Origin: an uncultured Lachnospiraceae bacterium
GTDB taxonomy: Bacteria; Bacillota; Clostridia; Lachnospirales; Lachnospiraceae
Direction: 5' to 3'
Assembly: GCA_950097145.1 (NCBI GenBank)
Contig: CATNCF010000012.1
Location: 1 to 64,000, forward strand
Length of the DNA stretch: 64,000 nt
The notes under the pieces are model-generated. The model was not told where the DNA came from. It ran no database searches and saw nothing but the letters and a program-made list of their open reading frames with translations. Position 1 is the stretch's first letter, and each line of letters starts with the position of its first letter. Of the stretch, positions 24,164-51,749 are shown one piece after another. The position numbers and the translations under genes were made by a program.

Positions 24164-24182
24164 GAAAATGCATTCAGTGATC

Positions 24183-24218
24183 AGAAGAGATACTGTTCGT
24201 TCGAACAGTATCTCTTCT
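24183..24218 (+). terminator. 36-bp perfect palindrome: terminator or operator
   Basis: 17 bp (24183-24199) are perfectly complementary to 24202-24218 around a 2-nt centre. The transcript would form a very stable hairpin ending the decarboxylase operon, but no T-run follows (GTATAGG). It lies 25 bp before the RpiR-type regulator gene, so it could also be an operator. Confidence 0.6.
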
Positions 24219-24242
24219 GTATAGGAAGGAATTCATGGGACA

Positions 24243-42831: not shown

Positions 42832-43365
42832 ATGGAAAAGTCCTATCATATATTTTCTGAGACTGAAATTACACGGGAACTGTTTCAGGGATTTCTGAGG
42901 TATCAGGAAGTAAGGAAATGCTGGCAGAAGGGGCCGGAAGGATGGGGGTTGAAAAATGTTTCCTATGTGGAAGAATGGAGCGGTGCACAGTATGAGTTTT
43001 TGGTGAAATGCCTGAAAAATACAATAGCTGCCGGGGGTTTTGTGTTTGGCGTATTTGAGTGCAGCAGACTGTTAGGATTCGCTTCTGTGGAGAGCGGTCA
43101 TTTTGGAACCAGAAAACAGTATGTACAGCTCTCCTGTATTCATGTTTCCTGGGAAAGCAGGGGAAAAGGGCTGGGGCGCGGACTGTTTCAGTGCGCATGC
43201 AGCGGGGCCCGGAAACTGGGAGCAGAGAAGCTCTATATTTCTGCGCATCCCGCTCAGGAAACACAGGCATTTTATCATGCGTTAGGCTGTGTGGAAGCAA
43301 AAGAGTATCATGAAAAGAGTGCGGCCGGGGAGCCAGGGGACTGCCAGTTGGAATATGTTTTGTAA
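42832..43365 (+). CDS. GNAT-family N-acetyltransferase
   Basis: A 177-residue acetyltransferase. The acetyl-CoA motif is HVSWESRGKGLGRGLFQCACSGARKLGAEKLYISAHPAQETQAFYHALGC. The substrate is unknown. It follows proA directly and is probably on the same transcript. Its codon use is slightly richer in G and C than that of the DNA which follows. Confidence 0.82.
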   Translation: MEKSYHIFSETEITRELFQGFLRYQEVRKCWQKGPEGWGLKNVSYVEEWSGAQYEFLVKCLKNTIAAGGFVFGVFECSRLLGFASVESGHFGTRKQYVQLSCIHVSWESRGKGLGRGLFQCACSGARKLGAEKLYISAHPAQETQAFYHALGCVEAKEYHEKSAAGEPGDCQLEYVL

Positions 43366-43392
43366 AAAGGAACGTTAGTAAAATTTAGCTGA

Positions 43393-43563
43393 TATCGATA
43401 TGATTCCTGCTCTGCCGTTCCGATTTTTGATGATGATGGAGAAGTTTTGCATTCTAATGTTTTTCATGTGGAATCTGTGATAAGACATGCTGTGGATAGG
43501 AAATTGTATCTATATGATATTATAAACATAAAAAAAGAAACGAGTATCCCGCTTGAGCCATAA
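43393..43563 (+). pseudogene. Headless 56-codon coding remnant (phage/toxin C-terminus-like)
   Basis: An open frame bounded by TGA (43390-43392) and TAA (43561-43563) has no start codon near its beginning. It encodes a coherent sequence: SAVPIFDDDGEVLHSNVFHV, then ESVIRHAVDRKLYLYDIINI. The ending resembles C-termini of phage-borne barnase/EndoU/RelE-like nuclease domains (PBECR type) from MuF-like proteins; this is recognition by pattern only. It is most likely the decayed end of a lost mobile gene. Confidence 0.45.
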
Positions 43564-43595
43564 GACTGCACGGTTAAAAACTCATTTCTTATTTT
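43535..43595 (+). terminator. Hairpin with T-rich tail before miaB
   Basis: AAGAAACGAGT (43535-43545) pairs with ACTCATTTCTT (43580-43590) with one mismatch, followed by ATTTT. It overlaps the end of the coding remnant and would stop transcripts coming from proA and the GNAT gene. Confidence 0.6.
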
Positions 43596-43630
43596 AATTA
43601 TATGCCAGAAAGGGAGAAAAGTCAAGAGAA

Positions 43631-45079
43631 ATGTATAATGAAGTGGATTTAGATAAAATAGATATAAATTCAGAACCGCCGATGGAAGAACCAGCCAGGC
43701 AATATTATTTTATGGCAAAATGCAGGGAATGGATCAGGGAGTTTGAACGGAAAAACGGACGATGCCCCACTGCGTTTACTCAAACGTTCGGCTGCCAGAT
43801 GAATGCCAGAGATTCAGAGAAACTCACAGGAATCCTGGAAAAAATCGGATATAAGCAGGCAGAAAGCGAGGAGGCAGATTTTGTTATTTATAATACTTGT
43901 ACGGTAAGGGAGAACGCCAATAATAAGGTGTGGGGCAGGCTGGGCTATTTGAATGCATACAAGAAGCAGCATCCCCATATGAAAATTGCGCTCTGCGGAT
44001 GTATGATGCAGGAACCGGAAGTCATCGAAAAACTGAGAAAAAGTTACCGTTTTGTGGATTTGGTTTTTGGAACTCACAATATTTATAAATTTGCAGAGCT
44101 GCTGGCAGAAGCTTTGGAACAGGAAGGCATGTTCATTGATGTATGGAAGGGTACGGACCAGATTGTGGAGGATTTGCCAATAGAGCGCAAATATGCTTTT
44201 AAATCTGGTGTAAACATTATGTTTGGATGTAATAATTTCTGCAGCTACTGTATTGTTCCATATGTCAGGGGAAGGGAACGGAGCCGGAAACCCCAGGACA
44301 TTTTAAGAGAGATTGAAAGACTTGCAGCAGACGGTGTAGTAGAAATTATGCTTCTGGGGCAGAATGTGAATTCTTATGGAAAAACTTTAGAAGAACCGAT
44401 GACTTTTGCCCAACTGCTCTCAGAAGTTGAGAAATTGGAGGGGATTGAACGAATTCGGTTTATGACTTCCCACCCTAAGGATCTCTCGGATGAACTGATT
44501 GAGGTTATGGCAAATTCCAATAAGATATGTAATCATCTGCATCTGCCCCTGCAGTCTGGAAGCAGCCGTATTTTAAAAAAAATGAACCGCCGATATGATA
44601 AAGAACAGTATCTTGCCCTGGCGGCAAAAATACGGAAGGCCATGCCGGGACTCGCATTGACTACAGATATTATTGTTGGATTTCCAGGGGAAACAGAAGA
44701 GGATTTTGAAGAAACCATGGATGTGGTAAGGCAGGTTGGCTATGACAGCGCATTTACTTTTATCTATTCCAAACGTACAGGGACTCCGGCCGCAGCCATG
44801 GAAGAACAAGTACCAGAAGCAGTGGTGAAAGAACGTTTTGACCGTCTGTTAAAAGAGGTGCAAAGAGGCGCTGCGGAACGTGCCAGGGCCCTGACTGGAA
44901 GCGTAGAGAAAGTTTTGGCAGAAGAGATTAATGAACAGGATGAAGCACTGGTAACAGGAAGAATGGGCAATAATTTTATCGTCCATTTTCCAGGAACGGA
45001 GGATCTGATCGGCAAGATTGTTAACGTGAAGTTAAAGGAATGCCGGGGATTTTATTTTTATGGGGAAATGACAGATTAG
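43631..45079 (+). CDS. miaB: tRNA (N6-isopentenyl adenosine(37)-C2)-methylthiotransferase
   Basis: MiaB adds a methylthio group to i6A37 of tRNA. 482 residues: UPF0004 domain with cysteines in FGCQMNARDSEK, NTCTVRENA and CGCMMQEPEV; radical SAM motif FGCNNFCSYCIVPYVRGRERSR; C-terminal TRAM domain. The N-terminal 40 residues are an extension. ruvA follows 12 bp later. Confidence 0.95.
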   Translation: MYNEVDLDKIDINSEPPMEEPARQYYFMAKCREWIREFERKNGRCPTAFTQTFGCQMNARDSEKLTGILEKIGYKQAESEEADFVIYNTCTVRENANNKVWGRLGYLNAYKKQHPHMKIALCGCMMQEPEVIEKLRKSYRFVDLVFGTHNIYKFAELLAEALEQEGMFIDVWKGTDQIVEDLPIERKYAFKSGVNIMFGCNNFCSYCIVPYVRGRERSRKPQDILREIERLAADGVVEIMLLGQNVNSYGKTLEEPMTFAQLLSEVEKLEGIERIRFMTSHPKDLSDELIEVMANSNKICNHLHLPLQSGSSRILKKMNRRYDKEQYLALAAKIRKAMPGLALTTDIIVGFPGETEEDFEETMDVVRQVGYDSAFTFIYSKRTGTPAAAMEEQVPEAVVKERFDRLLKEVQRGAAERARALTGSVEKVLAEEINEQDEALVTGRMGNNFIVHFPGTEDLIGKIVNVKLKECRGFYFYGEMTD

Positions 45080-45091
45080 AAAGGTGGCGTT

Positions 45092-45709
45092 ATGTATTCA
45101 TACATGAAGGGTGAACTGATTGAGATTTTAGATGATACCATTGTACTTGAAGTGAATCATATTGGCTATAATATCCATATTCCGGCAAGCATCATCGACA
45201 ATTTCAGCGGGACAGGCCAGACAATAAAGATTTATACTTATTTTCACGTAAAGGAAGATTCCATGAAGCTCTATGGCTTCCTCACCCAGGATGATCTGAA
45301 CGTGTTTAAACTTCTGCTGGGAGTTAACGGAATCGGTCCCAAAGGAGCGCTGGCCATATTGACAGTTATGACGCCGGACGATCTGCGTTTTGCCATACTT
45401 GGAGACGATGCAAAGACCATAGCAAAAGCTCCGGGCATTGGAATTAAGACTGCACAGCGTCTGATCCTGGAGTTAAAGGATAAACTGGATCTTCAGGAAG
45501 CATTGGAAGTTAAGGCGGCGCATATGGCAGAGGAGCCAGGAGAAAGTTCCGCCGATTCTGGTATAAAAAACGAGGCTGTACAGGCATTGGCAGCTCTTGG
45601 ATATTCCTCGACAGAGGCTTTGAAGGCAGTAAAGGCAGTGAAATTTACAGAAGGCATGACGGTGGAAGAGGTCTTAAAGGCGTCTTTAAAGCAGATGGCA
45701 TTCTTATAG
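45092..45709 (+). CDS. ruvA: Holliday junction branch migration protein RuvA
   Basis: A 205-residue RuvA, the junction-binding subunit that loads the RuvB motor. OB-fold N-terminus (MYSYMKGELIEILDDTIVLEVNHIGY), tandem helix-hairpin-helix motifs (LLGVNGIGPKGALAIL and APGIGIKTAQRLILEL) and the C-terminal RuvB-binding domain (EAVQALAALGYSSTEALKAV). ruvB is not adjacent as usual but 4.4 kb downstream, beyond an acetyltransferase gene and a restriction-modification module. Confidence 0.96.
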   Translation: MYSYMKGELIEILDDTIVLEVNHIGYNIHIPASIIDNFSGTGQTIKIYTYFHVKEDSMKLYGFLTQDDLNVFKLLLGVNGIGPKGALAILTVMTPDDLRFAILGDDAKTIAKAPGIGIKTAQRLILELKDKLDLQEALEVKAAHMAEEPGESSADSGIKNEAVQALAALGYSSTEALKAVKAVKFTEGMTVEEVLKASLKQMAFL

Positions 45710-45780
45710 GAGGTTCATGTGAGTTCTGAAGTGTTTACAAGAGTAAAATAGTAGTGGATTTTGAAAGTGGAGGACAAATT

Positions 45781-46227
45781 ATGACTACGATAAAGAGAAT
45801 GGAAGAAAAGGATACACAGGATATATTTGAAATGATGCGGGATTTTTATGATTCTCCGGCGATTTTACATGAAGTGCCGGAAGAGGTTTTAAGGCGTGAT
45901 ATCGAGGCTTGTATCAGCGATAATCCATACATTGAAGGGCTTGTCTTCCGTGCCCACGGAGTAATTGCAGGATATGCCATGCTTTCCAAAAGCTTCTCCA
46001 CGGAGTTTGGCGGAGCTTGTATCTGGATAGAGGATCTTTACATGAAGCCGGAGTACCGCAATGGCGGGATAGGAACCCAGTTTTTCCAGTATCTTGAGAC
46101 GGAATACAAAGGCAAGGCGGTGCTTTTGAAATTGGAAGTGGAACCAGGGAATACTTGGGCGATTGAGGTATACAAAAAGTGCGGATATAAAGAACTTTCT
46201 TATATGGAAATGATTAAGGAGTTATAG
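45781..46227 (+). CDS. GNAT-family N-acetyltransferase
   Basis: A 148-residue acetyltransferase with IWIEDLYMKPEYRNGGIGTQFFQYLE and LEVEPGNTWAIEVYKKCGYKEL, which form the acetyl-CoA site. GTGGAGGA at 45767-45774 sets the ATG at 45781; an earlier in-frame start at 45754 lacks a site. The substrate is not known. It lies 71 bp after ruvA. Confidence 0.85.
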   Translation: MTTIKRMEEKDTQDIFEMMRDFYDSPAILHEVPEEVLRRDIEACISDNPYIEGLVFRAHGVIAGYAMLSKSFSTEFGGACIWIEDLYMKPEYRNGGIGTQFFQYLETEYKGKAVLLKLEVEPGNTWAIEVYKKCGYKELSYMEMIKEL

Positions 46228-46377
46228 ATGAAAAGGAAAGTACCGATCACGGAAAACCTTTGATTGAGGAAGGACTTCCGTTGATTATGCCAGATACGTA
46301 GAATCCTGTCAGGGTGTTGGAGTTTCTCTGGCTTTGCCGAATTGGAAAAATTTGAACGTTAGAATGATATTTTATCA
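46228..46377 (+). other. Gene-free spacer with degraded coding look
   Basis: Right after the acetyltransferase stop there is an 11-codon frame (ATG at 46228 to TGA) and, in another frame, about 37 open codons ending with SCQGVGVSLALPNW and a short tail. Neither has a supported start and no family is recognised. It may be debris at the left edge of the inserted restriction-modification module. Confidence 0.3.
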
Positions 46378-46406
46378 TTGACATTATAGAACAAATGTTC
46401 TATAAT
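46378..46406 (+). promoter_or_regulatory. Consensus sigma-A promoter of the restriction-modification module
   Basis: TTGACA (46378-46383), 17 bp, TATAAT (46401-46406), a perfect match. AGAGGTG (46413-46419) and the ATG at 46425 follow, so the untranslated leader is only about 12 nt. Confidence 0.9.
46383..46406 (+). promoter_or_regulatory. LexA-type (SOS) operator over the module promoter
   Basis: A perfect 11+2+11 bp palindrome fills the promoter spacer and the -10 box. Its core, AGAACAAATGTTCT (46388-46401), contains GAAC-N4-GTTC, the Gram-positive LexA box core. A repressor bound here would block RNA polymerase. LexA is the best guess from the motif; a module-specific controller binding the same palindrome is possible, but no controller gene is present. 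Confidence 0.7.
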
Positions 46407-46424
46407 GGTGATAGAGGTGATTTT

Positions 46425-48617
46425 ATGCAGATACGGCTAATAGAAGCTTTTAGGGAATTTGAAGCAAAGTATGCATCGTTAAAAAGAATTACAGCAGCAT
46501 GGTATAAGACTCAGTGTGGTGTCTTTTCTAACAATAAAGCATCTGAAACGAAAAATAAAAACGGTTATTCCGAAGAATGGTATCGAGCCCGCATGGTTTG
46601 GAGTTTGGTAAGAACGCAGTATTGTGCTCCGGAAAATATCTGCGTGGAATTTTCAATTCCAAAGGGCAGCAAAGGGGCAAATCCATTAAAACCAGATCTT
46701 GTTATTTTTACAGATGCAGATTGGAAAAGAGAATACGACAATTGGAAAGATAAAGATACGAAACTGCCAGAAAGCCTTGCAAAAAAAATGTTGGTTGTAG
46801 GGGAAGCTAAGAATAATACGAACGAGGTCAATCGTGCAGTTACTGTGCAAATGTCCGAAGCAATGAACAGTGCGGTTGGATGTGAAGAAGTTTATGGTTT
46901 ATATTTCGATTGTATGGATGATATATTACTGTTTAAGAAGGTTCGGAATCATTCTATACAACGTTATTACGAGAAAATGCAAAAAATAGATGGCGATGAA
47001 ATTGAAGCTTTAAATCTGGTATACCGTGACACATTACAGAATATGCCTAAATTTGAAGATTTACTGGAACATAATCTTCCTTCTGACATGGTAAACAGAA
47101 GAAATTTTAATCATACGCAGCCACTGAGAGAAGAAAGTTTTTCTGAAATTTTAGAGATTATAAACAGAACCGTAGACAGATTGGGATTATCCCGGGATGC
47201 ACAAGATTTAATTGTAGAGTTTTTGACTTTGAAAGCAGCAGATGAAAAAGAAGTATTAAGAAAACAAAAGAAGTTTTTTGAATTTTATATTTTAGATGAA
47301 GAAAGAAATGGCTTATTTGGGGATCAAACATTTAGAGGCCGTATTAATGAGATTTACAAAAGGGCAAAAAGTGAATATAGCGGCACCATATTTAATCCAT
47401 CAGCGCTAACATATAAGGAAAAGAATCATAATCTTATTCCATCTCATCCAGATGATGAAAAAATGCTTATATCTATTATCACCATTTTCCAAGAAAAAAA
47501 GATTTCTATTATAGGCTCCAGGCATACCGGCTTTAATCAAATAATTTTTAACAATTTTGGAAATAACATTGAAAAGGCGAAAGAAAAACAGTTTTTTACG
47601 CCAGTTCCAGTGGTAGAGGCGATTGTAAAGCTTGTAAATCCTCAAAAAAACGAAAAGATTTGTGATCCGTGTGCTGGAATATGCGATTTTTTAGCCATGG
47701 CATTTAGACATGTAAACAGAAAAAATTTATCTGGATTAATGGACGCAAATGACTATTATGGATTTGATAAAGATAATAAAATTTTAAAATTGGCAGAACT
47801 TAATCTTGTATTAAATGGTGATGGAAATGCTGTGATAAGAAATATGAACACAATTGATCATAAATTACTTGTAAATGGACAATATCAAAATATTAAATTT
47901 GATATTGATGATTATAATGTGGAGGATTGGACAAATAAAAATGATGAGTCACTGAATGTGCAAAAATTTGATGTAATTTTGACCAATCCTCCATTTGGAA
48001 GGGGAAGAGATTTACAGACAGGTAAGAATGGCAAGTGGGATGTATCAAAAAAAACCATTCAATTGTATGAAGTATGGATGAAAAAAAAACAGCCTAAGAG
48101 TATAGATATGGGAGTTATTTTCCTGGAAAATGCAGTTAAAATGCTTAATGATGGGGGAAGGATGGCAATTGTTTTAAGTAATTCTATTGCGAGTATTAAG
48201 GACTGGGAATGTGTAAGAGAATGGCTGATATCAAAAATGAGAATTGTTGCATTAATTGATTTGCCAGCGAATACTTTTGGACAGACAGGTGTTGCAACCA
48301 CAGTAGTGATTGCATATAAGCCAAAGAAAAATGAAATGCATCTTTTAAATGAGGATTATGAGGTCTTTGTAAAGGAAATTGAACATGTGGGATATACTGT
48401 AAAAGAGAAAAATAAGGTGATAGATATGCCGCCAAATTATTTAATAGATGAAAACACTTATGAAATAGTCTGTGATAAAGACGGAAAAAAATGTATTTTA
48501 AGTGATTTTCCAGAACTGGTTTCTACATTTGGAGAGTGGCTGGAAGATAATAAATATGTCAATCAGGAGATATACCGGGCATTTCATGGAGAATCTTATC
48601 AGAAATGGAGTAATTAG
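46425..48617 (+). CDS. Fused PD-(D/E)xK nuclease / N6-adenine DNA methyltransferase
   Basis: 730 residues from the ATG at 46425; the longer frame to 46395 overlaps the promoter and is rejected. The N-terminal nuclease domain resembles HsdR_N: Glu75 (ICVEFS), Pro90-Asp91 (KPDLVIF), Glu127-x-Lys129 (VVGEAKN), Gln142. A helical part follows, then a gamma-class N6-adenine methylase: motif X KQFFTPVPVVEAIV (389-402), motif I DPCAGICDF (414-422) and motif IV NPPF (521-524). The second glycine expected in motif I is Cys420. With no helicase domain and a separate S subunit next to it, the layout resembles BcgI-like type IIB enzymes. AT-richer than its neighbours. Confidence 0.85.
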   Translation: MQIRLIEAFREFEAKYASLKRITAAWYKTQCGVFSNNKASETKNKNGYSEEWYRARMVWSLVRTQYCAPENICVEFSIPKGSKGANPLKPDLVIFTDADWKREYDNWKDKDTKLPESLAKKMLVVGEAKNNTNEVNRAVTVQMSEAMNSAVGCEEVYGLYFDCMDDILLFKKVRNHSIQRYYEKMQKIDGDEIEALNLVYRDTLQNMPKFEDLLEHNLPSDMVNRRNFNHTQPLREESFSEILEIINRTVDRLGLSRDAQDLIVEFLTLKAADEKEVLRKQKKFFEFYILDEERNGLFGDQTFRGRINEIYKRAKSEYSGTIFNPSALTYKEKNHNLIPSHPDDEKMLISIITIFQEKKISIIGSRHTGFNQIIFNNFGNNIEKAKEKQFFTPVPVVEAIVKLVNPQKNEKICDPCAGICDFLAMAFRHVNRKNLSGLMDANDYYGFDKDNKILKLAELNLVLNGDGNAVIRNMNTIDHKLLVNGQYQNIKFDIDDYNVEDWTNKNDESLNVQKFDVILTNPPFGRGRDLQTGKNGKWDVSKKTIQLYEVWMKKKQPKSIDMGVIFLENAVKMLNDGGRMAIVLSNSIASIKDWECVREWLISKMRIVALIDLPANTFGQTGVATTVVIAYKPKKNEMHLLNEDYEVFVKEIEHVGYTVKEKNKVIDMPPNYLIDENTYEIVCDKDGKKCILSDFPELVSTFGEWLEDNKYVNQEIYRAFHGESYQKWSN

Positions 48618-50084
48618 ATGAATTATTACAAAAAGCCAGAATTTGTAAAAATATCTCAAATAAAAAATAAACATTATTCCTTACATCCTATGGAACATAG
48701 AATTGTACCAATACCAGGACGTAATTATATACTGTTAAGAGAACTGTGTGATACAGAAGATGTGGGAAAACAGATTGATGTTTCAGAATATTTACCGTTC
48801 GATACCAAATATTATTTGCAGACTATTAGCTGTATGGAAGGAAATATTGTATCTCTGCAGCAGGGAAAAAATATTTCTCCCTTAACTTATAATAAATCTG
48901 CCAAAAAATTATCAAAAGGAAATTTTTGCATTAGCAGGAATGCATCGATTGGAAAAATAGCTTATGTTTCTAATGATTGTAAGGCTATCGTGAATGGAGG
49001 AATTTCCTTTTTTAAATTTAAAGATGAATATAAGTATTACATTCCAGCTTTTTTTATTACAAATTATGGCGAAGATACCTTAAAATGCACTACATCTGGA
49101 GGCGGAACCCAACAAAATGTAAAGCGGGAGACTTTGCTGAATATAAAAATTCCACTTCCAGCGAACAACATGAATCACTCTCAAGAAGAAGTGATAACGT
49201 ACGTTTCTGCTTTGGTCCAACTTTTAATTGAAAAAGAGATGATGATTGAAAAAAAAGTTAAGAAAATCAATGCTATCATAGAAAATGAAATGAAGAAAAA
49301 ACAAAGTAAAACTCCATATAAGTTTCCGACAATAAAAGAGATCAAGAACAGAGGGTACAGATTAGATACAGGTGTATATGAAAGAAAATATAAAGAAGTA
49401 ATGAATCAGATTGTGTCGTTTGAAAAAGGATTCCATATGATACGGGATATGGAATATGACTGGATTTCTGGAAAGACGCCGGATATCATTTTACCATGTG
49501 AAAAGGGCAAATATTGGTGGATCGCGGTAGGAGATATTTCATATGGATTAAAATTTAAAGAACTTAACAGGTATAATACAGCAGAAAATATTTCTGGAAA
49601 ATTGGAAGACGGAGATATCTTGATTACCAGAAAAGGTGCAACTGTTGGAAAAATGAATATGTATTTTGATTTATATAATATTCCAGCGTTTGTGAATGAA
49701 GATATTAAGGTTTTGAGATTAAAGGAAAAGATGGAAGAAAAAGTATTTATTGGTATGTTCTTAAATTCAAAGTATGGGCAGGAGCAAATGCTCAATCTTG
49801 CGTCCAGAGGGACAAAACAAGGATTAACAAATGAAAATATTTTGGATATTTGCGTACCTGACTTTGATGATAAGGTTAAAGCAAAGATATTTCAAGAGTA
49901 TTACCAGAACTGTGAGAATAAACGGGAACCATCCGAGCCATATTTAAGATATCATATTATGCGCAATCAAGAACTGGGGATATGTCAGCTTAACATGGAG
50001 ATGTTTATGATTAAAAGAAAGCTGGAGGGAATCGTTGCACAGATTGTAAAGCAGCATGAAATCCAGATAGATTACATGTTGTAA
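48618..50084 (+). CDS. Type I-like DNA specificity (S) subunit, two TRDs
   Basis: 488 residues that would dictate the DNA target of the fused nuclease-methylase. Two target-recognition domains can be seen (about 20-215 and 250-430). Each has the family pattern of a NASIGKIAYVS or GATVGKMNMYF strand, and an NGGISFF or NEDIKVL strand further on. They are joined by a Lys/Glu-rich coiled coil (about 205-240). Two TRDs imply a bipartite recognition site. The ATG directly follows the upstream stop (TAGATG), so translation is probably coupled. Confidence 0.85.
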   Translation: MNYYKKPEFVKISQIKNKHYSLHPMEHRIVPIPGRNYILLRELCDTEDVGKQIDVSEYLPFDTKYYLQTISCMEGNIVSLQQGKNISPLTYNKSAKKLSKGNFCISRNASIGKIAYVSNDCKAIVNGGISFFKFKDEYKYYIPAFFITNYGEDTLKCTTSGGGTQQNVKRETLLNIKIPLPANNMNHSQEEVITYVSALVQLLIEKEMMIEKKVKKINAIIENEMKKKQSKTPYKFPTIKEIKNRGYRLDTGVYERKYKEVMNQIVSFEKGFHMIRDMEYDWISGKTPDIILPCEKGKYWWIAVGDISYGLKFKELNRYNTAENISGKLEDGDILITRKGATVGKMNMYFDLYNIPAFVNEDIKVLRLKEKMEEKVFIGMFLNSKYGQEQMLNLASRGTKQGLTNENILDICVPDFDDKVKAKIFQEYYQNCENKREPSEPYLRYHIMRNQELGICQLNMEMFMIKRKLEGIVAQIVKQHEIQIDYML

Positions 50085-50114
50085 GCAGCCCAACAGCAGA
50101 AAGGACAAGCGTTT

Positions 50115-51116
50115 ATGGAAAAACGTGTAATATCCACACAGATCCAGGAGGAGGACCAAAAGATTGAGACAAGCCTCCGGCCTCAGAGTCTGGAAGAATA
50201 TATAGGACAGGAAAAAGCAAAAAAGACCTTAAAGGTATATATCGAAGCGGCGAAACAGAGAGGAGAATCCTTAGATCATGTGCTGTTTTATGGGCCGCCT
50301 GGATTGGGTAAAACCACCCTTGCAGGAATTATTGCAAATGAAATGGGAGTACATATGAAGGTGACCTCGGGTCCTGCCATCGGAAAGCCGGGAGAAATGG
50401 CGGCGATTTTAAGCGGACTTCAGGAAGGAGATATCCTGTTTGTAGATGAAATCCACCGTTTGAACCGTCAGGTGGAAGAGGTACTTTACCCAGCCATGGA
50501 GGATTATGCCATAGATATTATGATTGGAAAAGGAGCCACAGCCCGTTCTATCCGGTTAGATCTTCCGCATTTTACTCTGGTAGGGGCAACTACCCGTGCA
50601 GGTCTGCTGTCCGCTCCCCTCCGGGATCGTTTTGGGGTTGTGCATCATTTGGAATTTTATTATCCAGAAGAATTAAAAGTGATTCTTCTGCATTCAGCAG
50701 AAAAGCTTGAGGTTGAGATTGACGAGGAAGGCGCTTTTGAACTGGCAAGGCGTTCCAGAGGAACGCCGCGGCTGGCAAACCGCCTGTTGAAGCGCGTCAG
50801 AGATTTTGCGCAGGTAAAATATGACGGCAGGATTACCAAAGAGGTTGCCGTCTTTGCACTGGACTTGCTGGAAGTCGACAAGTTCGGACTGGATCAGAAT
50901 GACCGGAATATCCTGATGACTATGATTGAGAAATTCCAGGGGGGGCCCGTGGGGCTTGATACACTGGCTGCGTCTCTGGGCGAGGATTCCGGCACGATTG
51001 AAGATGTTTATGAGCCATATCTTGTTAAAAATGGTTTTATCAACCGGACGCCGAAAGGAAGAGTAGTGACAGATTTTGCTTATGGGCATTTTGGAATTGC
51101 AAAAAATGTCTTATAG
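50115..51116 (+). CDS. ruvB: Holliday junction DNA helicase RuvB
   Basis: A 333-residue AAA+ motor: Walker [13 protein letters not shown], Walker [10 protein letters not shown], sensor [18 protein letters not shown] and a C-terminal winged helix ([20 protein letters not shown]). It starts 30 bp after the specificity subunit and no promoter is visible in that gap, so it is probably read from the LexA-box promoter, from ruvA, or both. Confidence 0.96.
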
Positions 51117-51125
51117 TGTTAAAAT
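51097..51125 (+). promoter_or_regulatory. Sigma-A promoter of zapA
   Basis: TTGCAA (51097-51102), 17 bp, TAAAAT (51120-51125), overlapping the ruvB stop codon. Confidence 0.6.
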
Positions 51126-51179
51126 GGTAAAAGTTAGGATCATGGGATATACATGTGGTTTCAGGGAGGATTCATATAT

Positions 51180-51749
51180 ATGTCAGAGAAAACCAGTGCA
51201 GAAGTATTGATAGGCGGCAAAATTTATACCTTAAGCGGTTATGAAAGCGAAGAATATTTGCAGAGAGTTGCAAATTATATTAATAATAAAATGAATGAAT
51301 TTGATGAGATGGAACAGTTCCGCCGGCTTGCAGCAGACATGAAGTCTACGCTGATTGAGCTTAATATTGCAGATGATTATTTTAAAGCAAAAGAGCAGGC
51401 AGAGAATCTGGAAGAAGCTGTCCGTGAGAAGGAGAAAGAAATATACGAGCTTCAGCATGATTTGATTTCAGCTAAAATACGGGTGGAAAGCAGTGAAAAG
51501 ATGGCTGCTGAATTGGAGAAAGAAAATAAAGAACTGCTTCTGAATAAATCCAAGCTGGAAGCATCCCTGGAGGACGCTTTGCTGGGGAAGGTAAAGGGAC
51601 AGGCTGCCATTCAGCAGGAGCTGGAACCTCAGGATAAAGGACAGGCTTTTATACAGCCGGAACCTGAAGCTTTAGATAAAGGGCAGGATACAAACAGGCA
51701 GAAGAATGAGAAAAAGAATGGGAAAGAAAGGGTGACTCAAAAGAAATAG
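51180..51749 (+). CDS. zapA: Cell division protein ZapA-like
   Basis: 189 residues: a ZapA head (EVLIGGKIYTLSGYESEEYLQRVANYINNKMNEF), a long coiled coil (about 70-140), and a variable tail with imperfect repeats around DKGQ. ZapA bundles FtsZ filaments. The ATG at 51180 follows AGGGAGGA (51163-51170). The last codons also form the first arm of the terminator hairpin. Confidence 0.85.
   Translation: MSEKTSAEVLIGGKIYTLSGYESEEYLQRVANYINNKMNEFDEMEQFRRLAADMKSTLIELNIADDYFKAKEQAENLEEAVREKEKEIYELQHDLISAKIRVESSEKMAAELEKENKELLLNKSKLEASLEDALLGKVKGQAAIQQELEPQDKGQAFIQPEPEALDKGQDTNRQKNEKKNGKERVTQKK

Follow-up and report, generated by a model that had tools for sequence, protein, structure and literature searches.

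Restriction-modification (RM) enzymes can cut the DNA of their own host, and the best-known response of such a system to DNA damage, that of the type I enzymes of Escherichia coli, is a lowering of restriction, as described in a review (PMC12707154) the main text of which does not contain the term "LexA". The described enzymes closest in plan to the system reported here are BsaXI, a type IIB enzyme of (RM)2S composition with an N-terminal PD-(D/E)xK domain (PMC11997821), and BcgI, an A2B complex (PMC4027205). Here we analyse a 64,000-nucleotide stretch of DNA from an uncultured Lachnospiraceae bacterium (contig CATNCF010000012.1, positions 1 to 64,000; hereafter the window), in which a two-gene RM module, composed of the genes A and S, lies between ruvA and ruvB, behind a promoter that overlaps a probable LexA operator. 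In the best reading, to which we assign a probability of about 0.8, a type IIB-like RM system is controlled by LexA and ruvB is probably co-transcribed with it as an incidental consequence of the insertion site. What is new is the switch, and its recurrence at a second type of RM system, rather than the enzyme itself. Within the library of papers searched, phrases for SOS- or LexA-regulated restriction returned no paper, and no LexA-controlled RM enzyme appeared in the titles and abstract openings among the matches listed. Below, G, C and L numbers are our labels for genomes, contigs and loci.

The module promoter and its probable operator

The A and S genes are preceded by a full consensus promoter (-35 hexamer TTGACA at 46378-46383, -10 hexamer TATAAT at 46401-46406, 17-bp spacer), the sole 12/12 match among the 26 promoter-like matches in 43200-51200, a region whose shuffles yield 24.9 matches. 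This arrangement, a consensus promoter with a GAAC-N4-GTTC core upstream of nuclease-methylase and specificity genes between ruvA and ruvB, is as an earlier, sequence-only reading of this DNA had described it. The same reading called the promoter repeat a perfect 24-bp palindrome: the 24 paired bases are indeed there, as CATTATAGAACA-AA-TGTTCTATAATG, and the AA centre is unpaired, giving a 12+2+12 structure of 26 bases. Only one other place in the window has perfect arms of at least 12 bases around a loop of at most 8, and the promoter repeat encloses the only strict GAACN4GTTC box of the window, at 46389. Separately, the longest such structure of the window is a perfect inverted repeat at 24182-24219, with 18-bp arms and a 2-base centre. 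A reverse-facing promoter built on the mirrored -10 hexamer was considered and dropped, as by eye no -35 faces that way. Searching the viral_contigs collection with the 24 paired bases as a pattern gave no exact match. The promoter pattern TTGACA-N5-GAACN4-GTTC-TATAAT matched there 45 times; by eye, recA-like frames follow two of these matches and a LexA-like frame follows a third, whereas the majority of the remaining matches stand before frames that could not be named in this way.

Strict cores at the host's own SOS genes provide the standard against which the module site can be judged. The 26 cores of the host genome comprise 20 within mechanically called open reading frames (ORFs), one at an ORF edge (C16) and five in non-coding DNA. 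These five are the module promoter itself, a site 18 bases upstream of the recA start, another 258 bases before uvrB (a gene named by eye), a third upstream of a radical-SAM repair gene (TIGR03916, E = 1.1e-204), where a second, looser box lies 58 bp off, and a site on C26 that lies between two frames and is not interpretable. Across the genus, a strict core stands upstream of recA in 27 of 28 loci, host included, the 28th having GTTT, and the lexA promoters of 22 genomes contain one to five looser matches each (for example GAACATTTGTTT and GAACAAATTTTC). A symmetric LexA matrix was trained on 27 genus recA boxes, excluding the host's and retaining an identical word from G021, together with 51 of 64 lexA-promoter matches, 13 having been dropped by eye; lexA boxes were weighted 3:1, and loci L086 and L095 are absent from the lexA-promoter set. 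On this genus matrix the module site scores 16.5 bits, the highest value in the window, the runner-up reaching 13.7 and the host recA box 17.5, and a single hit at or above the module score occurred in 1.92 Mb of first-order Markov sequence. The module site therefore matches the host's own SOS boxes and occupies a promoter position, as a member of the LexA/SOS regulon would.

The site can also be compared with Clostridioides difficile, in which LexA was tried on 20 fragments and bound 16 targets (PMC4234289). An 11-base core, GAACAAATGTT, is common to the module site and to the LexA-bound lexA and recA operators of that species, AGGAACAAATGTTTGC and GAGAACAAATGTTTGT (PMC4234289). Because of the host SOS boxes at recA, uvrB and the TIGR03916 gene, the rank on the matrix, the core shared with C. 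difficile and the boxes found at other RM promoters (see below), we consider the site a probable operator. The proposal of the sequence-only reading that the module carries a LexA-type operator is thus well supported at the level of sequence, and the RM module is likely to be under LexA control, through predicted binding of the repressor.

The enzyme, its relatives and other restriction loci

Table 1. Positions of the features between ruvA and ruvB in the window.
Feature	Position	Strand	Evidence and remarks
ruvA	45092..45709	+	TIGR00084, 2.7e-62
GNAT acetyltransferase gene	45754..46227	+	PF00583, 4.5e-16; between ruvA and ruvB in several relatives too
Remnant of an S-adenosylmethionine-dependent methyltransferase gene (named by eye)	46228..46358	+	blastn against L099: short matches, of which the last stops at 46357
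Promoter TTGACA-17-TATAAT	46378..46406	+	12/12 consensus match
Inverted repeat, 12+2+12	46382..46407	.	Spans the -35 end, spacer and -10
Probable LexA operator core, GAACAAATGTTC	46389..46400	.	Genus matrix, host SOS boxes, published C. difficile operators
A subunit, 730 amino acids (aa)	46425..48617	+	Pfam N6_Mtase, 6.8e-30; homologue alignment; RM.BsaXI profile match
S subunit, 488 aa	48618..50084	+	PF01420, 1.6e-14; two Methylase_S stretches
ruvB	50115..51116	+	NF000868, 2.7e-155; open frame; starts 30 bases after the S stop

The frames of A and S are both open (Table 1). The mechanically called frame of A begins at 46395 (740 aa), and we infer that translation starts at the ATG at 46425, since the mechanical start falls within the operator. 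An N6-adenine methylase domain occupies residues 377-655 of A, and a profile of nine A homologues matches RM.BsaXI in the PDB (8w0p) at 1.2e-22, the best stretch, 428-635, corresponding to the methylase. Pfam gave no nuclease match in A; in its N-terminal region, residues D91, E127-x-K129 and Q142 are invariant over the nine homologues, an arrangement that we take to resemble the PD-(D/E)XK pattern. Like BcgI and BsaXI, the module thus combines an N6-adenine methylase in the A chain with a separate S chain, the conserved N-terminal residues of A marking a candidate nuclease; unlike in BsaXI, whose RM chain has 916 residues, the A chain has 730. This plan suggests a type IIB-like system with intact genes and a putative nuclease. 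The GC content of A and S, 0.33 and 0.32 versus 0.43-0.47 in the flanking genes, is consistent with horizontal transfer.

Ten further A homologues, full-length or nearly so, make up with the window a family of 11 members. Two of them, L133 and L134 (Bacteroidales, Flavobacteriaceae), have a 59% identical A, six are 32-33% identical (L135, L136, L137, L138, L139, L141), and the remainder are L149, on a viral contig, and L151, a class member. Neither the family sample (397 genomes) nor the order sample (392 genomes), in both of which no more than two candidates per listed genome were scored, contained a member at 1e-40 besides the window; the class sample (391 genomes) contained one. By tblastn, no plasmid record covered 80% of A, one phage record did so at 24% identity (MT840012), and single-protein scans of genome_contigs and viral_contigs yielded nothing useful.

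A strict box lies within 450 bp upstream of A in three of the 11 members, the window, L135 and L136 (the A starts of L137 and L149 are approximate in this check). In the two latter loci, both from Lachnospiraceae and with an A 33% identical to that of the window, the boxes GAACAAACGTTC and GAACGTACGTTC follow TATAAT by 7 and 6 bases, respectively, so the box is placed in two ways, within the spacer in the window module and after the -10 in L135 and L136. L133, L134, L138 and L139 resemble controller (C-protein) RM systems in having a small Cro/C1-type helix-turn-helix (HTH) gene before A, with a 4-bp overlap in three of them, and L135 has an excisionase-type HTH gene. The window module is unlike controller systems in this respect: no HTH gene was found between the GNAT gene and ruvB, the -10 hexamer and the A start are 18 bases apart, and the LexA-type operator stands in the controller's place. 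The picture suggested by these sequences is that of a family in which some members have a controller and others a LexA-type box, the window module having the box and no controller.

The genome G023 appears to be that of L136 (Lachnospiraceae bacterium 3-1), the A proteins being 100% identical. In its ~5.1 Mb, GAACRNRYGTTC occurs at seven places, three in frames and four in non-coding DNA, and two of the latter are RM promoters, that of A-S and that of a second RM cluster; the other two are an operon of HTH and M78-peptidase genes and an uninterpreted site. The second cluster (L269 839-7660, G023:C21, near rpsI by eye) encodes a 1005-aa type IIG enzyme (2.7e-253) together with a type III-like methylase (1.4e-102), a weakly PLD-like protein and a D12 methylase split over two frames. 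The 12-mer GAACAAATGTTC recurs unchanged in the box of this cluster, one base after TAAAAT, the presumed -10. Two side observations were made in these genomes. At L271 2077 (G023:C1), TTGACA-N4-GAACAAATGTTC-G-TATAAT, nearly the window promoter, precedes a small frame, an HTH gene and an M78-peptidase gene. By eye, box-bearing RM clusters lie near rplM-rpsI in two Lachnospiraceae genomes (L135, L269) and L136 lies between infA and rpsM, pointing to ribosomal operons as landing sites.

Several observations weaken the case for LexA control or weigh against it. A lone GAACN4GTTC core carries no significance in a sequence of 64 kb (0.59 expected, and at least one in 45 of 100 shuffles), and the operator claim must therefore rest on other evidence. 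Counts over whole genomes show no overall excess of cores, either in the host (26 places versus 24 for a reversed-pattern control) or in G023 (4 and 5 per strand versus 3 and 6). Within the family, eight of the 11 members are without a strict box within 450 bp, L135 and L136, being 90% identical with similar promoters, count as one lineage, and the L136 core scores only 10.0 bits on the genus matrix. No strict core was found in 202,447 bases of 20 other methylase regions of genus relatives (chosen from methylase matches and not annotated individually), where ~1.7 would be expected at the host rate, nor in 28 shorter loci (L018-L045); on the basis of the former regions, we reject the idea that RM loci are in general under SOS control. 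Finally, two lexA families did not find lexA in the host assembly, which is 82.8% complete. A LexA DNA-binding match is present in 24 of 28 genus relatives, and one of the four without it, G012, is 95% complete, so that a real absence of lexA is possible in the genus.

In the host, the missing lexA is probably an assembly gap. In G021, lexA lies ~49 kb past ruvB; the host contig C12 extends for 23 kb beyond this gene. Of the 16 kb around the G021 lexA, the host matches just the initial 1.2 kb and a separate 98-bp piece, and the first of these matches stops where contig C50 ends, ~6 kb short of the expected lexA.

The ruvA-ruvB insertion site

The interval entered by the module is variable within the genus. 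Among the 27 genus genomes with ruvB, host included, ruvA and ruvB lie within ~110 bp of each other in 11, genes separate them in 14 (the host among them, and G005 being without ruvA in view), and in G019 and G001 (L115, L170), where no ruvA is in view, the neighbour of ruvB is by eye pnp. The inserted genes are diverse and for the most part co-directional, including GNAT, methyltransferase, MFS transporter, AAA protein, aldo-keto reductase and hydrolase genes (named by eye except GNAT), and amount to a dozen or so frames in G026 (L114 8490-15664); further occupied gaps include those of L110 (G006), L116 (G027) and L121 (G017). Outside the genus, the two genes are within ~100 bp in all eight genomes examined. 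In the window, the methyltransferase gene remnant corresponds to a longer gene in the relative G003 (L099), and the left junction of the RM insert lies near 46359-46377. The varied cargo and this remnant together indicate that the RM module entered a variable insertion site. The comparison of the interval in relatives, which the sequence-only reading had put forward, hence yielded a variable gap with many inserts, and a linkage of RM to ruvB that looks incidental.

The sequence-only reading had also noted that ruvB has no visible promoter of its own, and indeed 49900-50115 contains a single 9/12 promoter-like match (49982-50011), no more than background. That the module promoter drives ruvB by read-through is plausible, if less secure than the operator: a scan found no terminator-like site in the short gap between S and ruvB, and one weak terminator-like site (5 pairs) inside S, at 49467, could reduce read-through. 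No plus-strand terminator-like site was found from ruvA to the module either; transcripts from miaB-ruvA may also run into the module, and LexA could act as a roadblock to them.

It had further been suggested that the insertion keeps ruvB under SOS regulation. Among 34 ruvAB-bearing loci (223,958 bases in total, some of the loci stopping short of the miaB start upstream), one strict box was found, just before ruvA in G039, a genome of another family, and the genus loci fetched contained none. Looser matrix matches were present ~90 bp before miaB in the genus member G026 (12.3 bits), before ruvA in G035 (12.0 bits) and ~1 kb before ruvA in G031 (13.3 bits). LexA binds ruvCA in C. difficile (PMC4234289), an instance of ruv genes under SOS control in another organism. 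We reject the idea of retained SOS control of ruvB, as none of these genus loci, as far as they were fetched, has a strict SOS box that the insertion could have preserved; the insertion would instead supply one.

Proposed regulation and alternatives

We propose that a horizontally acquired two-gene type IIB-like RM system landed between ruvA and ruvB, with a LexA operator covering its only strong promoter. In undamaged cells, LexA would hold the module low, at a level sufficient for maintenance methylation. RecA filaments, formed upon DNA damage, entry of single-stranded plasmid DNA or phage replication, would lead to LexA cleavage and to a joint rise of A and S; as cutting and methylating reside in one polypeptide, both activities would rise in step. 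Read-through into ruvB would be incidental to the insertion site. Of this scheme, the sequence itself establishes the promoter, the match to an operator, the order of the genes, their open frames and the repeated occurrence of boxes, whereas repressor binding, induction, read-through, enzyme activity and benefit are predictions. The benefit may lie in more restriction when single-stranded DNA enters or a phage replicates, or in more maintenance methylation after damage. Extending this to the other box-bearing loci, it is possible, at slightly less than even odds in our judgement, that Lachnospiraceae RM systems of unrelated types have repeatedly been put under LexA in replacement of their own controllers. 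Restriction raised by damage or by entry of single-stranded DNA would then constitute an SOS-gated immunity, the opposite of the restriction alleviation of E. coli.

As to the benefit alone, a different answer, compatible with LexA control of the module and in our view unlikely without being far-fetched, is that SOS raises the enzyme for self-protection, by remethylation of repaired or over-replicated DNA, and not for cutting invaders. For BcgI, hemi-methylated sites are the only ones to be methylated, and unmethylated sites are cut (PMC4027205), so that damaged cells would risk cutting their own DNA if methylation lagged; however, more enzyme also means more of the putative nuclease, and in E. 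coli the response to damage is the opposite, a drop in type I restriction (PMC12707154). With respect to the switch itself, it is improbable that the repeat serves another repressor, such as a Cro/C1-type regulator or the methylase itself, instead of LexA. Such a repressor would account for a repeat that extends past the 14-bp LexA site, and the closest homologues, L133 and L134, do carry Cro/C1-type HTH genes overlapping the A start, but there is no regulator gene in the window module, the score of the core and its flanks on the genus LexA matrix comes close to that of the host recA box, and the extra symmetry just mirrors the -10 hexamer.

Even less credible is a functional coupling, in which selection would have joined the module and ruvB into a single SOS operon so that RuvB, as the sequence-only reading thought possible, helps to repair the breaks made by the nuclease. 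RuvB has a role in recombinational repair, and its gene stands 30 bases from S on the same strand with no terminator-like site between them. However, ruvB was found at none of the eight related modules searched, five of which show >2 kb after S, and in 13 of the 26 genus relatives where ruvB was found, other, unrelated genes occupy the ruvA-ruvB gap, on which grounds a purposeful coupling of RM and ruvB is rejected; in addition, the genus ruvAB loci fetched contained no strict box, and RuvB raised without RuvA would probably be of doubtful use. The view that the box is an accidental match overlapping a promoter, for which the 0.59 cores expected per window and the 20 of 26 host cores within ORFs could be invoked, is rejected in light of its position inside the region's best promoter, its matrix score and the recurrence of boxes at a divergent module and at an unrelated RM cluster.

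LexA control of the module, if true, would be the opposite of the E. coli response, linking the sensing of single-stranded DNA, be it from damage, conjugation or phage replication, to the level of restriction, and would make an easily tested example of a mobile defence module relying on a host-wide switch and not on a controller of its own. It would also differ from what is described for the C. difficile LexA regulon, of which the named targets are repair, sporulation, transport, resistance and virulence genes (PMC4234289), in an article whose main text does not contain the word "restriction". A further parallel to the probable operator described here is the SOS-controlled toxin system SymE/SymR of E. 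coli, where the promoter of a toxic gene likewise shares bases with a LexA site (PMC3874152), and symE symR is named among the systems accompanying type I loci (PMC12707154); unlike the enzyme predicted here, SymE is the toxin of a toxin-antitoxin pair and not an RM enzyme.

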